A stretch of DNA of 64,000 nucleotides from Natrarchaeobaculum aegyptiacum (GTDB taxonomy: Archaea; Halobacteriota; Halobacteria; Halobacteriales; Natrialbaceae): NCBI RefSeq assembly GCF_002156705.1, contig NZ_CP019893.1:868001-932000 (forward strand). Direction: 5' to 3'. Shown piece by piece: positions 7,957 to 53,607 of this stretch. Position 1 is the stretch's first letter; the number at the start of each line of letters is the position of its first letter. The notes under the pieces were generated by a model that worked only from the letters and a program-made list of their open reading frames with translations, was not told the DNA's origin and did no database searches. Position numbers and translations under genes: made by a program.

Positions 7957-8272
7957 CGATCGTCACCTCCGCGACGGTCGAAACCGTTGGCTCCGTCGAC
8001 GTCACCAGCCCGGTTCGTTCCGGCGACTGCAGCCGACCGCGTACTCGGAGCGCCGTCCATCACTCGGTCCCTTCATTCGCACCCATCAGTTAAGGGTGTT
8101 CCCCGTCAGTGCGGACGGTTTTGCCGGTGTCGCCGAGCGTCAGCGTCACCGAGCCACGTGATCGAAGACCGTGACCGGCGCTGCGACCACGCGATAAGTC
8201 AAACCCGAGTTTGAGTCACGCGAGGAATTAGGTACGCGTAGCCCGAACCGACTGTCAACCGACCGACTCGCC
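7957..8272. other. Intergenic region with a dyad but no gene
   Basis: No convincing coding frame. The only clear structure is the near-palindrome at 8197-8216, described separately, about 60 bp upstream of the winged-helix gene. Confidence 0.5.
8197..8216. promoter_or_regulatory. Near-palindromic operator candidate
   Basis: Two arms AGTCAAAC and GTTTGAGT flank a CCGA centre with 7 of 8 positions complementary. The site lies about 56-75 bp before the start of the winged-helix regulator at 8273. Autoregulation through this dyad is an inference from its position. Confidence 0.4.
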
Positions 8273-8734
8273 ATGTCCGGACTCCTCCCGACGACCACAG
8301 ACGCGACGACCGACCGCTCGGGATCGCCCGCACTGCTGTGTCTCGAAGACGACCGCACCGACGAGATTCTCGATGCCCTCTCGTCTGACACCGCTCGAGC
8401 GATCTTTCGGGCACTGAACGAGCGACCGCGCTCGGCCGCCGCCCTCGCAGACCACCTCGAGATGTCGATCCAGCGTGTCAGCTACCACCTCGACACTCTC
8501 ACCGAGATCGGCCTCATCGAGGTTGCAGACACCTGCTATTCGGAGAAGGGCCGTGAGATGGACGTCTACGCCGTCGCCGAGGAACCGCTCGTGATATTTC
8601 TCGGCAGCGAGAACGACCAGCCCGGACTGCGGATCGCGCTCAAGAACCTCGCAGTCGCGGTCGGCCCCGTCTCGATCCTGATCGCGATCTGGGAGACGCT
8701 CGCCCGATTCGTCGGTTCCGACGGGGCTGCCTGA
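8273..8734 (+). CDS. ArsR-like winged-helix regulator with C-terminal membrane anchor
   Basis: 153 residues. About 22-105 form an ArsR-type winged helix: LSSDTARAIFRALNERPRS, AALADHLEMSIQRVSYHLDTL and GLIEVADTCYSEKGREMDVYAV. The last ~35 residues are a hydrophobic segment (LAVAVGPVSILIAIWETLARFV), suggesting membrane tethering, a layout known among haloarchaeal regulators. No metal-binding cysteine motif of classic ArsR sensors is evident. The following gene encodes a polytopic membrane protein in the same orientation 89 bp downstream, a possible target. Confidence 0.8.
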   Translation: MSGLLPTTTDATTDRSGSPALLCLEDDRTDEILDALSSDTARAIFRALNERPRSAAALADHLEMSIQRVSYHLDTLTEIGLIEVADTCYSEKGREMDVYAVAEEPLVIFLGSENDQPGLRIALKNLAVAVGPVSILIAIWETLARFVGSDGAA

Positions 8735-44701: not shown

Positions 44702-44831
44702 GTAGTCGATCGCTGCCGAGAGTGGAAACAGCAGGCATGACCTCGACAGCGAGTGGACGTGGGCAGTAGAGATAACTATCGGTTTCTCTACCGGCAGATG
44801 CCACCGGAGTCTCCAACGCGAGTCGAACAGT

Positions 44832-44855
44832 CACTCGGTCGTGAGTAACGTTATT
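44832..44855 (+). promoter_or_regulatory. TrmB-like site and promoter of kdgA
   Basis: CACT, 7 nt, then GAGTA (44832-44847) matches the published Halobacterium TrmB motif TACT-N7/8-GAGTA with one mismatch. A TATA-like ACGTTATT follows at 44848-44855, about 32-39 bp before the ATG at 44887. A similar block precedes gdh. Confidence 0.5.
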
Positions 44856-44886
44856 CCCGTCGAGTCGCGAAGGGAGTCGTAAGACG

Positions 44887-45552
44887 ATGACAGAGCGCCG
44901 GTCAGTTCGAGACCAGATTGCCGAGTGCGGTCTGGTCGCAGTGATCAGAGGAGTCGACGAGGCAGACGCCGTGTCAGCCACACGAGCACTGGTTGACGCG
45001 GGCGTGACGGCACTGGAAGTCACCGCAGACGGACGTCACACGGCCGAGACGGTCGCGACGCTGGATCGAGAATTCGCAGACGAGGACGTCCTCGTCGGGG
45101 CGGGAACTGTCCTCGACGCCGAGACAGCCCAGGCGGTAATCGACGCGGGCGCCTCGTTCGTCATCTCACCGCACCTCGAGCCGTCGGTCGTTCGGACCTG
45201 TAACCGCCACGGCGTGCTCCCCGTGCCAGGCGTGATGACCCCTACGGAGGCGGTGCGCGCCCTCGAAGAGGGGGCCCGCGTCCTCAAGGTGTTCCCCGCG
45301 AGCACGCTCGGGCCGGACCACCTCTCTGCGCTCCAGGGGCCTCTCGGCGACGTCGACCTCGTCCCGACCGGCGGCGTCTCGAGCGAGAACGTCGAGGCGT
45401 TCTTCGATGCCGGTGCGATGGCGGTCGGCGCGGGTGGCTCGCTGGTCGACAGCGAGGCGATCGCCGACGGTGATTTCGACCGCGTTCGCGAGCACGCCGA
45501 GACGATGGTCGAAGCCGTGGCGGCGGCCCGCCACGGCGGGAACGAATCGTAA
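44887..45552 (+). CDS. kdgA: 2-keto-3-deoxy-6-phosphogluconate (KDPG) aldolase
   Basis: 221 residues of bacterial class I KDPG/KHG aldolase. The Schiff-base lysine is Lys134 in RVLKVFPAST, the catalytic Glu is Glu44 in TALEVTADG, and the substrate loops LVGAGTVLDAE, VPGVMTPTEAV and LVPTGGVSSENVEAF are intact. It splits KDPG to pyruvate and glyceraldehyde-3-phosphate, the last step of the haloarchaeal semi-phosphorylative Entner-Doudoroff route. Followed by gdh and gad on the same strand, each with its own promoter. Confidence 0.96.
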   Translation: MTERRSVRDQIAECGLVAVIRGVDEADAVSATRALVDAGVTALEVTADGRHTAETVATLDREFADEDVLVGAGTVLDAETAQAVIDAGASFVISPHLEPSVVRTCNRHGVLPVPGVMTPTEAVRALEEGARVLKVFPASTLGPDHLSALQGPLGDVDLVPTGGVSSENVEAFFDAGAMAVGAGGSLVDSEAIADGDFDRVREHAETMVEAVAAARHGGNES

Positions 45553-45615
45553 CTGGGTCGCCGGGGACGCACGTACCAGCCCCACAGTCAGTCGGATTCC
45601 GTGACCTTCACAATT

Positions 45616-45640
45616 TACTACGATTGAGGTAACGTTTTAT
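45616..45640 (+). promoter_or_regulatory. TrmB-like site and promoter of gdh
   Basis: TACT at 45616-45619, then 7 nt, then AGGTA (45627-45631, GAGTA-like), then CGTTTTAT TATA element at 45633-45640, 24-31 bp before the ATG at 45664. TAACGTT(TT)ATTCCCG is shared almost exactly with the kdgA promoter. Confidence 0.5.
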
Positions 45641-45663
45641 TCCCGGCAGTCGTCGTGGCGTGT

Positions 45664-46731
45664 ATGGACGTGATCACTGTCGAGCCGGGCGCCGGCGAGC
45701 CCACCCGACTCGAGCGGCCGAGACCCGAGCCAGGATCGGGGGAGGCGCTCGTCCGGACCCTGCGCGTGGGCGTCGACGGGACCGACCGAGAGGTGATCGC
45801 CGGTCACCACGGCGAGCCGCCCGAGGGAGCCGATCGGCTGGTGCTGGGTCACGAGGCTGTCGGCGTCGTCGAGAAGCCGGGAGGGACCGACTTCGCGGTC
45901 GGTGACGTGGTCGTTCCGACGGTCCGCCGGCCGCCGAACGGGTCGAACGCGTACTTCGAACGCGGTGAACCGGACATGGCACCGGAGGGGGAGTACGTCG
46001 AGCGCGGCATCGCCGGCGCTGACGGCTTCATGGCCGAGTACGTCACCAGTCCCGCCGAAGACCTCGTCCCGATCCCCGAGGACCTCGCTCACCTGGGCTT
46101 TCTCGTCGAGCCGGTGAGCATCACCGAGAAGGCTCTCGAGTACGCCCTCGCCAGCCGCGAGCCCTTCGAGTGGGACCTCGAGTCGGCGCTCGTGCTCGGC
46201 AACGGCTCGCTCGGCTTGCTAACACTCGCGATCCTCACTGACGTACTCGAGGTCGAGCGGGCGTACTGTCTCGGCCGGCGGGACCGGCCCGATCCGACGA
46301 TCGACTTCGTCGAGGACCTCGGTGCAACCTACGTCGACTCCCGCGAGACGCCGGTGCCGGAGATTCCCGACGTCCACGAACCCGTCGACCTCGTCTACGA
46401 GGCGACGGGCTACGCCAGACACGCCTTCGAGACGATCGAGGCGCTCGCACCGAACGGCGTCGGCGCGCTCGTCGGCGTCCCCGGAGACTGGGAGTTCGAG
46501 ATCGACGGCGGGCGACTCCACCGCGAATTCGTACTTCACAACAAGGCACTCGTCGGCACTGTAAACTCCAATCGGGACCACTTCGAGGCCGCCGTCGACA
46601 CGCTCGGGGACCTTCCCGACTGGGTGTTCGAAGACCTCGTGACCGGCGTTTACGGGCTCGAGGAGTACGAGAAGGCCTTCGACGAACGTGACGACGTGAT
46701 CAAGACCGCCGTCGAGTTCGATTCGCTGTAG
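45664..46731 (+). CDS. gdh: Glucose 1-dehydrogenase
   Basis: 355 residues from the ATG at 45664, zinc-dependent medium-chain dehydrogenase. The catalytic zinc ligands match those of Haloferax mediterranei glucose dehydrogenase in position: Asp38 (VGVDGTD), His63 and Glu64 (GHEAVGVV). The structural-zinc lobe is reduced. The nucleotide-binding Rossmann motif is VLGNGSLGLLTLAI. It oxidises glucose to gluconolactone with NAD(P)+. First step of the pathway whose later steps are encoded by gad and kdgA next to it. Confidence 0.95.
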   Translation: MDVITVEPGAGEPTRLERPRPEPGSGEALVRTLRVGVDGTDREVIAGHHGEPPEGADRLVLGHEAVGVVEKPGGTDFAVGDVVVPTVRRPPNGSNAYFERGEPDMAPEGEYVERGIAGADGFMAEYVTSPAEDLVPIPEDLAHLGFLVEPVSITEKALEYALASREPFEWDLESALVLGNGSLGLLTLAILTDVLEVERAYCLGRRDRPDPTIDFVEDLGATYVDSRETPVPEIPDVHEPVDLVYEATGYARHAFETIEALAPNGVGALVGVPGDWEFEIDGGRLHREFVLHNKALVGTVNSNRDHFEAAVDTLGDLPDWVFEDLVTGVYGLEEYEKAFDERDDVIKTAVEFDSL

Positions 46732-46800
46732 TCGAGTCGTCTGCGAGACGAGCAGTTTCGCCGTTCGCTCGAGAACGTCTAGAGCGACCGGACGATGAAA

Positions 46801-46831
46801 ACAATTACTATCTTTGGTGTGAATATTTAAA
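46801..46831 (+). promoter_or_regulatory. Putative promoter/operator of gad
   Basis: ACAATTACTA at 46801-46810 matches ACAATTTACTA before gdh (45610-45620), including the TACT half-site; the second half is weak. An AT-rich ATATTTAAA follows at 46823-46831, too close to the ATG at 46835 to be its TATA box if transcription is leaderless; the AACAATTAC stretch about 30 bp upstream may serve. Confidence 0.4.
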
Positions 46832-46834
46832 CAC

Positions 46835-48073
46835 ATGGGAGTCGATTACTCACAGCTTCGCGACCCGAACGCGGAGTATACGATGCGGGAGCTTTCCGCG
46901 GAGACGATGAACGTCACCCGCGAGCGCGGCGGTGGGCGAGACGTCGAGATCACGGACGTCCAGACGACCATGGTCGACGGCAACTTCCCGTGGACGCTCG
47001 TGCGCGTCTACACCGACGCCGGAATCGTGGGGACCGGCGAGGCCTACTGGGGTGCCGGCGCGCCCGAACTCATCGAACGAATGGCCCCGTTCCTGCGTGG
47101 GGAGAACCCGCTCGACATCGATCGCCTGACCGAACACCTCGTCCAGAAGATGTCCGGCGAAGGCTCGATCGGCGGCGTCACCGTCACCGCCATCTCGGGC
47201 ATCGAGGTCGCCCTCCACGACCTCGCGGGCAAGATCCTCGAGGTGCCGGCCTACCAGCTGCTGGGCGGCAAATACCGCGACGAGGTCCGGGTCTACTGTG
47301 ACTGCCACACCGAGGAGGAAGCCGAACCGATCGCCTGCGCCGACGAGGCCGAACGCGTCGTCGAGGAGCTCGGCTACGACGCGCTGAAGTTCGACCTCGA
47401 CGTCCCCTCGGGTCACGAGAAGGATCGCGCGAACCGTCACCTCCGGAACGCCGAAATCGAGCACAAAGCGAGCATCGTCGAGGCCGTCACCCAGCGGGTC
47501 GGATCGCGCGCCGACGTCGCCTTCGACTGCCACTGGACGTTCTCCGGTGGCTCTGCGAAACGCCTCGCAAAGCGCCTCGAGGAGTACGACGTCTGGTGGC
47601 TCGAGGATCCCGTCCCGCCGGAGAACCACGACGTCCAGCGGTCGGTCACCCAGTCGACGACGACGCCTGTCGCCGCGGGTGAGAACGTCTACCGCAAACA
47701 CGGCCAGCGTCGCCTGCTCGAGGAGCAAGCGGTCGACATCGTCGCCCCGGACATGCCGAAAGTCGGCGGGATGCGCGAGACCCGAAAGATCGCGGACCTC
47801 GCGGACACCTACTACGTTCCCGTGGCGATGCACAACGTCTCCTCGCCGGTCGCGACGATGGCGAGCGCCCACGTCGGCGCAGCGATCCCGAACGTACTGG
47901 CCGTCGAGTACCACAGCTACGAACTCGGCTGGTGGGCAGACCTGGTCGAGGAAGACGTCATCGAGGACGGCTACATCGAGATCCCCGAAGAGCCGGGGCT
48001 GGGTGTCACCCTCGACATGGACGCCGTCGCTGAGCACATGATCGACGGCGAAGAACTATTCGACGAGGCCTGA
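46835..48073 (+). CDS. gad: D-gluconate dehydratase (enolase superfamily)
   Basis: 412 residues. Enolase-superfamily, mandelate-racemase branch: GEAYWGAGAPELIERM, TAISGIEVALHDLAGK, ALKFDLDVPSG (catalytic Lys), FDCHWTFSGG and WWLEDPVPPENHD (metal ligands), PVAAGENVYRKH, and MHNVSSPVATMASAHV. The N-terminus DYSQLRDPNAEYTMRELSAE is characteristic of haloarchaeal gluconate dehydratases and supports the 46835 start. Converts gluconate to 2-keto-3-deoxygluconate. KDG kinase is not in the window. Confidence 0.95.
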   Translation: MGVDYSQLRDPNAEYTMRELSAETMNVTRERGGGRDVEITDVQTTMVDGNFPWTLVRVYTDAGIVGTGEAYWGAGAPELIERMAPFLRGENPLDIDRLTEHLVQKMSGEGSIGGVTVTAISGIEVALHDLAGKILEVPAYQLLGGKYRDEVRVYCDCHTEEEAEPIACADEAERVVEELGYDALKFDLDVPSGHEKDRANRHLRNAEIEHKASIVEAVTQRVGSRADVAFDCHWTFSGGSAKRLAKRLEEYDVWWLEDPVPPENHDVQRSVTQSTTTPVAAGENVYRKHGQRRLLEEQAVDIVAPDMPKVGGMRETRKIADLADTYYVPVAMHNVSSPVATMASAHVGAAIPNVLAVEYHSYELGWWADLVEEDVIEDGYIEIPEEPGLGVTLDMDAVAEHMIDGEELFDEA

Positions 48074-50177: not shown

Positions 50178-51296
50178 GTGACGTCGAATCGGTCCACGCT
50201 GTCTCGCAGACGATTGCTTCGCCTGACCGCCGTCGCCGGCATCACCGGAGCCACCGCGACGACGGGCTTCGCTGCCCGCGGCGACCGCGTCGTCGCCCAG
50301 GAGTACACCGACGTCTACGAGGAGACGATCGACGACGTCGTCCTCGTCACCCCGGTGACGGCCACGGATCCAGCCGAGGACGGCGATCCCGGGACGCCGG
50401 ATCCCCCCGACCCTGAGGAGGAGGTCCCCGCTGGCCTCGGTTCCGGCTTCGTCGTCGACGACGTCGTCGTGACGAACGACCACGTGGTCGGGGACGCAGA
50501 CGCAGTCGAACTCCAGTTCACCGACGAGCAGTGGCGAACCGGAGAGGTCCTCGGCACCGACGACCACAGCGACCTCGCCGTCCTCGAGGTCGACGACGTG
50601 CCCGACAGCGTCGAGGGCCTCTCGCTCGCCGACGACGATCCCGAGGTCGGACAGGAGGTACTCGCACTCGGTAACCCACTCGGCCTGGACGCCTCCGTCA
50701 GTCAGGGAATCGTCAGCGGCGTCGATCGGTCGCTGCCGAGCCCGACCGGCTTCGCCATCCCCGCCGCCATCCAGACCGACGCCGCCGTCGACCCCGGTAA
50801 CAGCGGCGGACCGCTCGTCACCCTCGACGGCGACGTCGTCGGCGTCGTCTTCGCCGGGGCCGGACGGACCGTCGGCTTCGCTATCCCCGCCCAGCTCGTC
50901 TCGCGCGTCGTCCCCGAACTCCGCGACGAGGGCGAGTACGCCCACCCCTACCTCGGCGTCGGCACCGAACCGGTCGGTCCGCTGGCCGCTCAGGTCAACG
51001 ACCTCGAGGACGCCCGTGGCGTGCAGGTCGTCGAAACCGACCCCGACGGCCCCGCAGCGGACGTCCTCGAGACCGCAGACGAGGTCGCCCTGGTCGACGG
51101 ACGCCCGATCCCCATCGGCGGCGACGTCCTCGTCGCCATCGACGACGAAGCGGTCCCCACACAGGAACGGCTCACGACGTACCTCGCACTCGAGACGAGC
51201 CCCGGCGACGAGGTCGACCTCGAGGTGATCCGCGACGACGAGCGCGAGACCGTCGACGTGACGCTCGACGAGCGGCCGGACGTCGACGTGCCCTGA
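50178..51296 (+). CDS. Tat-exported HtrA/DegP-type serine protease
   Basis: 372 residues from the GTG at 50178, preceded by GAGGTGG about 9 nt upstream; a GTG at 50166 would overlap that ribosome binding site. A twin-arginine signal (SRRRLLRLTAVAGITG, 9-24) indicates export folded. An acidic Pro-rich linker (62-83) leads to the trypsin-like domain with triad His102 (TNDHVVGD), Asp132 (DDHSDLAVL), Ser209 (GNSGGPL). A PDZ domain ends the protein. Degrades or refolds damaged exported proteins. Tandem hairpins follow its stop. Confidence 0.93.
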   Translation: MTSNRSTLSRRRLLRLTAVAGITGATATTGFAARGDRVVAQEYTDVYEETIDDVVLVTPVTATDPAEDGDPGTPDPPDPEEEVPAGLGSGFVVDDVVVTNDHVVGDADAVELQFTDEQWRTGEVLGTDDHSDLAVLEVDDVPDSVEGLSLADDDPEVGQEVLALGNPLGLDASVSQGIVSGVDRSLPSPTGFAIPAAIQTDAAVDPGNSGGPLVTLDGDVVGVVFAGAGRTVGFAIPAQLVSRVVPELRDEGEYAHPYLGVGTEPVGPLAAQVNDLEDARGVQVVETDPDGPAADVLETADEVALVDGRPIPIGGDVLVAIDDEAVPTQERLTTYLALETSPGDEVDLEVIRDDERETVDVTLDERPDVDVP

Positions 51297-51372: not shown

Positions 51373-51414
51373 TGTGATGTGGTGTCGAATCACGCTCATC
51401 CGACGTCACGCACT

Positions 51415-51522
51415 CACCACACCACACCACACCACACCACACCACACCACACCACACCACACCACACCACACCACACCACACCACACCACACCACACCAC
51501 ACCACACCACACCACACCACAC
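51415..51522. repeat. Pentanucleotide microsatellite (ACCAC)n
   Basis: A perfect 5-bp tandem repeat of 108 bp, about 21.6 copies, without a single interruption. All six frames are open through it. It lies 118 bp after htrA and about 210 bp before a small zinc-protein gene. Confidence 0.97.
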
Positions 51523-52555: not shown

Positions 52556-52747
52556 ATGGACGTTCCGTACGACCTCACCTCGTACGTTCGGGTGTTGAAG
52601 ATGGCGACGACACCCACGACAGAGGAGTTCCTTCAGGTGTCGAAGATCGCCGGTGCTGGGATCCTGCTCGTCGGGTTCCTCGGCTTCATCATCGGCAGCG
52701 TCATGCTGCTGTTGACCGGCGGCGCAGCCCCCGGTGGTGGCTTCTGA
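52556..52747 (+). CDS. secE: Protein translocase subunit SecE (Sec61 gamma)
   Basis: 63 residues with an amphipathic N-terminal helix ([20 protein letters not shown]) and one transmembrane helix ([18 protein letters not shown]), the canonical archaeal SecE/Sec61-gamma layout. The stop overlaps the spt5 ATG (TGATG at 52745-52749), the conserved archaeal secE-spt5 pair. Clamps the SecY channel in the membrane. Confidence 0.95.
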
Positions 52748-53184
52748 TGGGCATCTACGCGGTCAAGACCACGGCGAGCCAGGAGCAGACCGTCGCCGAC
52801 ATGATCATCAACCGCGAAGAGCCCGAAGTCCACGCCGCACTCGCGCCAGATTCGTTGACTTCCTACGTGATGGTCGAAGCCGACGACCACAACGTGATCG
52901 AGCGCGTGCTCGAGGACATTCCCCACGCCCGGAGTATCGTCCCCGGCGAGTCGGACATCTCGGAGGTCGAGCACTTCCTCTCGCCGAAACCCGACGTCGA
53001 GGGAATCGCCGAGGGCGACATCGTCGAACTCATCGCCGGCCCGTTCAAAGGCGAGAAAGCACAGGTCCAGCGAATCGACGAAGGCAAAGATCAGGTCACC
53101 GTCGAACTGTACGAGGCGACGGTTCCGATTCCGGTCACGGTGCGGGGCGACCAGATTCGCGTGCTCGACAGTGATGAGCGCTAA
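52747..53184 (+). CDS. spt5: Transcription elongation factor Spt5 (NusG homologue)
   Basis: 145 residues: NGN domain (1-~85, [19 protein letters not shown] to [17 protein letters not shown]) and a KOW domain (about 90-145, [20 protein letters not shown]). With Spt4 it binds the RNA polymerase clamp and promotes processivity. The TAA stop lies in the loop of a perfect 9-bp hairpin (53173-53194), and the last 22 codons plus stop are part of the 194-bp repeat duplicated downstream. Confidence 0.97.
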
Positions 53185-53309
53185 GGCGCTCATCAAGCAG
53201 TCAGCGCGGTGCAACCGCGCTGAATATAGCGACGAACGATAGTTCGTCGAACCATGCGAACGGGCGCGTTGCGCCCGTGAGCATCCGACGAGCGGTAGCG
53301 AGTCGGTTC
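53116..53309. repeat. 194-bp direct repeat, copy 1 (includes spt5 3' end)
   Basis: Identical, by reading, to 53414-53607, offset 298 bp. It covers the last 22 codons and stop of spt5 and four perfect hairpins plus one partial one. The flanking bases differ on both sides (53115/53413 and 53310/53608), defining the limits. Confidence 0.95.
53173..53306 (+). repeat. Hairpin array starting at the spt5 stop codon
   Basis: Serial perfect stems: 53173-53194 (9 bp, TAAG loop containing the stop codon); 53201-53223 (10 bp, GCA loop); 53230-53249 (8 bp, GATA loop); 53260-53278 (8 bp, GTT loop). A weaker 5-bp stem lies at 53285-53306 (CCGAC/GTCGG). Spacing between stems is 6-10 nt. Repeated identically in copy 2 at +298. 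Not a known terminator layout. Confidence 0.85.
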
Positions 53310-53413
53310 ACTCGGTGTGAGCGACGTGAGCACCGAGAACGTTTTGTACTAAATTTTGCAAGGAGCGGTGAGCGAACGACGTGAGCGAACCCGACGCAGT
53401 AAAATTTAGGAGC
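53310..53413. repeat. Spacer with terminal inverted repeats between the two copies
   Basis: Contains CTCGGTG/CACCGAG (53311-53337), the 10-bp direct repeat GTGAGCGAAC (53368-53377 and 53381-53390), and a 9-bp inverted pair CTAAATTTT at 53349-53357 with AAAATTTAG at 53401-53409. Copy 2 follows directly. The AT-rich arms stand out from the GC-rich surroundings. Confidence 0.7.
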
Positions 53414-53607
53414 GCGACGGTTCCGATTCCGGTCACGGTGCGGGGCGACCAGATTCGCGTGCTCGACAGTGATGAGCGCTAAGGCGCTCATCAAGCAGTC
53501 AGCGCGGTGCAACCGCGCTGAATATAGCGACGAACGATAGTTCGTCGAACCATGCGAACGGGCGCGTTGCGCCCGTGAGCATCCGACGAGCGGTAGCGAG
53601 TCGGTTC
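53414..53607. repeat. 194-bp direct repeat, copy 2
   Basis: Same sequence as 53116-53309, including an untranslated duplicate of the spt5 C-terminal codons ([20 protein letters not shown]) and the hairpin array. No start codon or ribosome binding site makes the fragment a gene; it is a 3' remnant. Confidence 0.95.

Follow-up and report, generated by a model that had tools for sequence, protein, structure and literature searches.

The closest described systems are the TrmB regulons of two haloarchaea and the TrmBL1/Tgr regulons of Thermococcales. TrmB of Halobacterium salinarum (VNG_1451C) is associated with the motif TACT-N7/8-GAGTA and combines DNA-binding and sugar-binding domains, and its target gapII is also a target of TrmBHar (HAH_1548) in Haloarcula (PMC10817205). 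In Haloarcula hispanica, a TrmB ChIP peak with the motif is present at gdh (HAH_4332), yet this gene is bound without being differentially expressed and peaks at kdgA and gad are not listed; the authors concluded that the main role of TrmB is activation of gluconeogenesis and that glycolytic enzymes are not under its direct repression (PMC10817205). The motif overlaps the BRE in TrmB-repressed genes and generally lies upstream in activated genes (PMC10817205). TrmBL1/Tgr follows the same positional logic, repressing from the core promoter or downstream of it and activating from upstream, and glycolysis is repressed in the absence of sugar.

We analyzed a 64-kb stretch of DNA (the window) which is part of the complete 3.93-Mb genome of Natrarchaeobaculum aegyptiacum and which contains kdgA, gdh and gad; these genes follow one another, belong to the semi-phosphorylative Entner-Doudoroff pathway and each have their own upstream region. 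The motif spacing (TAC-N10-GTA), the presence of a site at gapII and the domain composition of TrmB are as in Halobacterium salinarum, but sugars do not serve that organism as an energy source, whereas in N. aegyptiacum the Entner-Doudoroff genes themselves carry the motif. With Haloarcula hispanica this genome shares gapII as a probable target, the motif in the gdh promoter and the overlap with the BRE that is tied to repression; it differs in that kdgA and gad bear sites as well, the one at gad being retained by most other families. The proposed repression of glycolysis without sugar resembles that in Thermococcales, where both the motif (TGM, TATCAC-N5-GTGATA) and the pathway (a modified Embden-Meyerhof pathway) are different. 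The finding extends the known TrmB regulon and is not a new kind of system. We consider it likely that kdgA, gdh and gad each carry an operator for TrmB, of which this genome has one intact copy, and that the three genes are repressed without glucose and opened together by glucose.

Predicted operators in the kdgA, gdh and gad promoters

The predicted TrmB-type operator of kdgA [KDPG/KHG aldolase, 221 amino acids, 44887..45552, plus strand (as are all features of this cluster); Pfam PF01081, E 9e-43; TIGR01182 above the curated cut-off] is TCACTCGGTCGTGAGTAA at positions 44831..44848. It is a nearly full palindrome and contains CACT-N7-GAGTA (44832-44847), one mismatch from TACT-N7-GAGTA, as the sequence-only reading had pointed out. 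A TATA-like box, GTTATT (44850..44855), was assigned directly 3' of the operator from its sequence and from haloarchaeal promoter spacing. In the promoter of gdh (glucose 1-dehydrogenase, 355 amino acids, 45664..46731; PF16912, E 1.8e-92), the predicted operator TTACTACGATTGAGGTAA occupies positions 45615..45632 and includes the TACT-N7-AGGTA reported earlier (45616-45631). The TATA box of gdh, TTTTATT (45635..45641), is identified by its sequence and its leaderless spacing to the ATG at 45664, and the distance between TATA box and ATG is nearly constant among relatives. In both promoters the right half of the site lies over the position of the BRE and is separated from the TATA box by one or two bases. 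The block that had been noticed as common to the two promoters is indeed present (TAACGTTATTCCCG at kdgA and TAACGTTTTATTCCCG at gdh) and corresponds to the right half-site together with the TATA box.

The gad gene (gluconate dehydratase of the enolase superfamily, 412 amino acids, 46835..48073; PF13378, E 7.6e-64), whose start codon is backed by an N-terminus conserved among relatives, has a different layout. The predicted operator TTACTATCTTTGGTGTGA spans positions 46805..46822, and the repeat described for gad, ACAATTACTA, is found at 46801-46810, its gdh counterpart ACAATTTACTA being longer by one base. The earlier statement that all sites lie upstream of the TATA region does not hold here, as the left half TTACTA is located at -30 to -25 from the ATG. 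In leaderless haloarchaeal genes this is the TATA position. The site extends downstream into a right half which the sequence-only reading had missed and in which GAGTAA has decayed to GTGTGA, ending at -13; the same half drifts likewise in congeners (GTGTAA, ATGTAA, ACGTGA).

Compared with TACT-N7/8-GAGTA, the kdgA site has one mismatch and the gdh and gad sites have two each, while the gad orthologues of many relatives match fully. With two mismatches allowed, TACT-N7-GAGTA occurs 92 times in the window versus 57 expected; matches of this looser kind are so common that gdh and gad are unconvincing from one genome alone. The pattern common to all three promoters is TTAC-N10-GTAA, which represents the outer letters of TACT-N7-GAGTA. 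With at most one mismatch it has five matches in the window versus 2.66 expected, and three of these five are the kdgA, gdh and gad promoters. Judged from sequence conservation in relatives (see below), the gdh and gad sites are beyond chance. The exact motif TACT-N7/8-GAGTA was rejected as a genome-wide criterion, since its 31 matches versus 18 for the reversed control, several of them coding, make it too unspecific, and the stricter palindrome TTACTC-N6-GAGTAA was adopted for the genome-wide scan. With one mismatch allowed, this palindrome has only six matches in the entire 3.93-Mb genome, among them the kdgA site; the reversed control gave three matches per strand. Of the other five matches, two are in coding sequence and three in promoters, namely that of gapII, that of a gene for a sugar ABC transporter binding protein and one divergent promoter.

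Conservation of the sites in Halobacteriales

All 80 of the named gdh orthologues that were retrieved from Halobacteriales have T[T/A]ACT at one fixed place directly upstream of the BRE and TATA box, and a counterpart of the gdh site is present in 28 Natrialbaceae relatives. The site occurs in three forms. Most families have about TTTACTCG-N3-TAGAATAAATCTTTTG, Natrialbaceae have TTTACTAC-N5-GGGTAAATCTTTTAT, and Halorubrum has TTTACTC-N4-TAAAAGAAATCTTTTGG, with a right half that is now a poor fit to TrmB. Several gdh copies without the site apparently lie behind another gene, which is expected for copies that have no promoter of their own. A true exception is formed by the gdh copies of two genera (g47 and g57) of family f4, in which the gdh site was not found.

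For gad, promoters were scored with TTACT-N7/8-GAGTAA at starts from -42 to -18. Among genomes not known to lack TrmB, 80 of 89 promoters reached at least 8 of 11 matches (4.7% of shuffled promoters) and 74 of 89 reached at least 9 of 11 (0.46% of shuffled promoters). All of these 74 best sites start between -26 and -30, and the spacing is exactly 7 in 73 of them. An alignment of gad promoters from about 30 relatives shows the full dyad, roughly AAACWATTACT-N7-GAGTAAGTA. The gad site is missing in the sampled members of families f14 (0/4) and f4 (0/4, one of them a TrmB-less genome).

The kdgA site is kept in the congeners G017 (TTACTCGGAAGTGAGTTT) and G042 (CAACTCGAATGTGAGTTT). Outside this genus the leader of kdgA is longer, and a right half with a TATA-like box (about GTGAGTAAA-NTTNTTG) is located roughly 90-140 bases upstream in about half of the promoters read. 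The notion that the kdgA site is absent outside the genus was dropped, as the right half and TATA box are present further upstream in several genera.

Candidate regulators of the sites

The genome encodes one intact TrmB (C1:98634-99695, outside the window) in which both PF01978 and PF11495 are present and which matches the TrmB structure PDB 3qph with an E-value of 2.7e-21. Its recognition helix, PQPRVYDTVRSL, is identical in all 24 orthologues read. Elsewhere in the genome (C1:3293867-3293962), only the C-terminal part of a TrmB effector domain remains, with a stop codon, and this short stretch is apparently a decayed TrmB paralogue.

To compare the sites with an independent standard, a matrix was built that draws solely on gapII promoters from outside the genus; ACTC-N6-GAGT is intact in 25 of these 27. 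Among the about 64,000 positions of the window the kdgA site ranks 2nd with this matrix, and the gad and gdh sites, which score weakly, rank 30th and 102nd. As gapII is a known TrmB target in Halobacterium and Haloarcula, the ranks give independent grounds for regarding the kdgA site as TrmB-like and, more weakly, the gad and gdh sites. Two other genes were tried as positive controls and set aside: fbp follows an aldolase-type gene, has no promoter of its own and showed no strong matrix site in the locus read, and ppsA has no clear site in this genome or in relatives.

The distribution of the sites was also compared with that of TrmB. The gad site was found in none of the four gad promoters from genomes without a TrmB orthologue (G011, G038 and G057, which belong to one genus, and G129), and no site was found in the gapII promoter of the TrmB-less G011. 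The association of the gad site with TrmB (Fisher 2e-4) is indicative only, because the sequences are related, and carries modest weight, because TrmB-less genomes that have gad are few and independent losses likewise. TrmB was sought in the sampled Natrialbaceae with a TrmB paralogue as query, which recovers TrmB too, and in 80 genomes with TrmB itself; the latter query covers part of the 89 genomes of the gad set. In the 64 genomes scored for both genes, TrmB and gdh occur together in 44, TrmB without gdh in 6, neither in 14 and gdh without TrmB in none (naive Fisher p 8e-10). In three genomes (G107, G115 and G122) trmB directly adjoins gdh.

The paralogue used in these searches is itself a candidate. 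It is a second TrmB-family protein of 355 amino acids, 31% identical to the global TrmB, that could read the operator, perhaps as a dedicated repressor; as it was not found in this genome or genus, the sites here would be relics or would have been taken over by TrmB. Ten loci that were read have its gene immediately upstream of kdgA-gdh-gad, and 17 of 61 Natrialbaceae genomes encode it with at least 76% identity. Fragments of it adjoin the cluster in G019 and G036, which suggests that it was lost repeatedly. In addition, the halves of the Natrialbaceae gdh and gad sites (TTTACTAC and TTACTAYC) are unlike the TWACTC halves at gapII. However, the gdh site is kept in 13 of 13 Natrialbaceae promoters without the paralogue (the one studied here excluded) as well as in 15 of 15 with it, indicating that the paralogue is unnecessary for maintenance of the site. 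The gdh element is moreover order-wide, the recognition helix of the paralogue (KRYVYSISEEL) differs from that of TrmB (QPRVYDTVRSL), and the published gdh ChIP used an orthologue of the global TrmB. We therefore regard the paralogue as an unlikely reader of these operators.

Two further explanations were weighed against TrmB. GfcR is an activator of glucose and fructose catabolism in Haloferax; it activates the glucose degradation genes of Haloferax volcanii, and deletion of gfcR impairs growth of Har. hispanica on glucose (PMC11519228), so the conserved dyad might be a GfcR site. An activator is not expected to sit on a TATA box as at gad, GfcR leaves the same dyad at the gluconeogenic gapII unexplained, and dyad sites are absent where TrmB is absent, which makes this assignment very unlikely. 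The likeness between the promoters might also be mostly core promoter (BRE and TATA box of leaderless genes) combined with chance matches to a short degenerate motif, given the frequency of TACT-N7-GAGTA with two mismatches, the coincidence of the gdh right half with the BRE and of the gad left half with the TATA box, and the Halorubrum gdh right half, which reads AAAGAAA instead of GAGTAA. Neither the gdh left half, upstream of the BRE, nor the gad right half, downstream of the TATA box, belongs to these elements, yet both are kept across families, and the kdgA site is close to a full palindrome; we consider such a core-promoter origin highly improbable. Binding by TrmB remains the preferred reading of all three sites.

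Proposed mode of regulation and additional sites

The suggestion that the three genes form one regulon with a common TrmB-type operator is supported by the order-wide conservation, the rank of kdgA with the gapII matrix, the rarity of the kdgA site and the absence of gad and gapII sites where TrmB is absent. Points against it are the decay of the gad right half in the genus and the deviation of gdh from the gapII-type matrix. The earlier, undirected proposal that TrmB activates or represses from these positions can be narrowed, as overlap with the BRE (kdgA, gdh) or TATA box (gad) points to repression without glucose at all three promoters. At gapII the site is located ahead of both BRE and TATA box, and about 58 bases separate its end from the start. 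With transcription starts assumed from haloarchaeal spacing, the published positional rule (PMC10817205) suggests that the three catabolic genes would be repressed without glucose and gapII activated. Without glucose, TrmB would bind to the three promoters, cover the TATA box of gad and the BRE of the other two, block TFB/TBP and thereby keep glucose breakdown off, while the same protein would activate gapII from its site upstream of the BRE. Glucose would release TrmB, and the kdgA, gdh and gad promoters would open together. For this organism we infer TrmB binding, the sign of regulation and the glucose response from these promoter features.

A broader proposal, to which we give an even chance, is that direct repression of the Entner-Doudoroff pathway by TrmB is ancestral in haloarchaea and operates order-wide through operators fused to the BRE or TATA box of gdh, gad and kdgA, that site position alone lets this one protein switch glycolysis and gluconeogenesis in opposite directions, and that Haloarcula is a derived exception. 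An operator on gdh and gad that is order-wide and absent without TrmB predicts direct repression for most haloarchaea, and the sites give the exact bases to mutate. The arrangement would represent an archaeal reciprocal switch between glycolysis and gluconeogenesis, set by the position of one regulator's site relative to BRE and TATA box.

Additional sites were observed outside the cluster. At C1:219707-219724 a TrmB-type site abuts the promoter of the sugar ABC transporter binding protein gene, which is likely a further member of the regulon; the best NCBIfam model of the protein is GlcS, below cut-off. The divergent promoter is flanked by a small membrane protein gene (MMWQDLVFMVGSGLSIVFLAP...) and a gene resembling hexose-1-phosphate uridylyltransferase (weak match), and has a perfect TTACTCAGTAGCGAGTAA (C1:1798453-1798470) that starts at -27 of the former in a gad-like layout. 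The top score of the window with the gapII matrix belongs to TAAGTCAAACCCGAGTTTGAGTCA (8195-8218); a gene for a small HTH-type protein begins about 55 bases downstream of it, at 8273.

Two repeat features were also seen in the window. An array of ACCACACC-type simple repeats (about 51380-51480) directly follows a trypsin-like protease gene ending at 51296. On the minus strand, two open reading frames (52633-53214 and 53201-53512) near an NusG/Spt5-like gene at 52747 have identical first 33 residues, which indicates a local DNA duplication.
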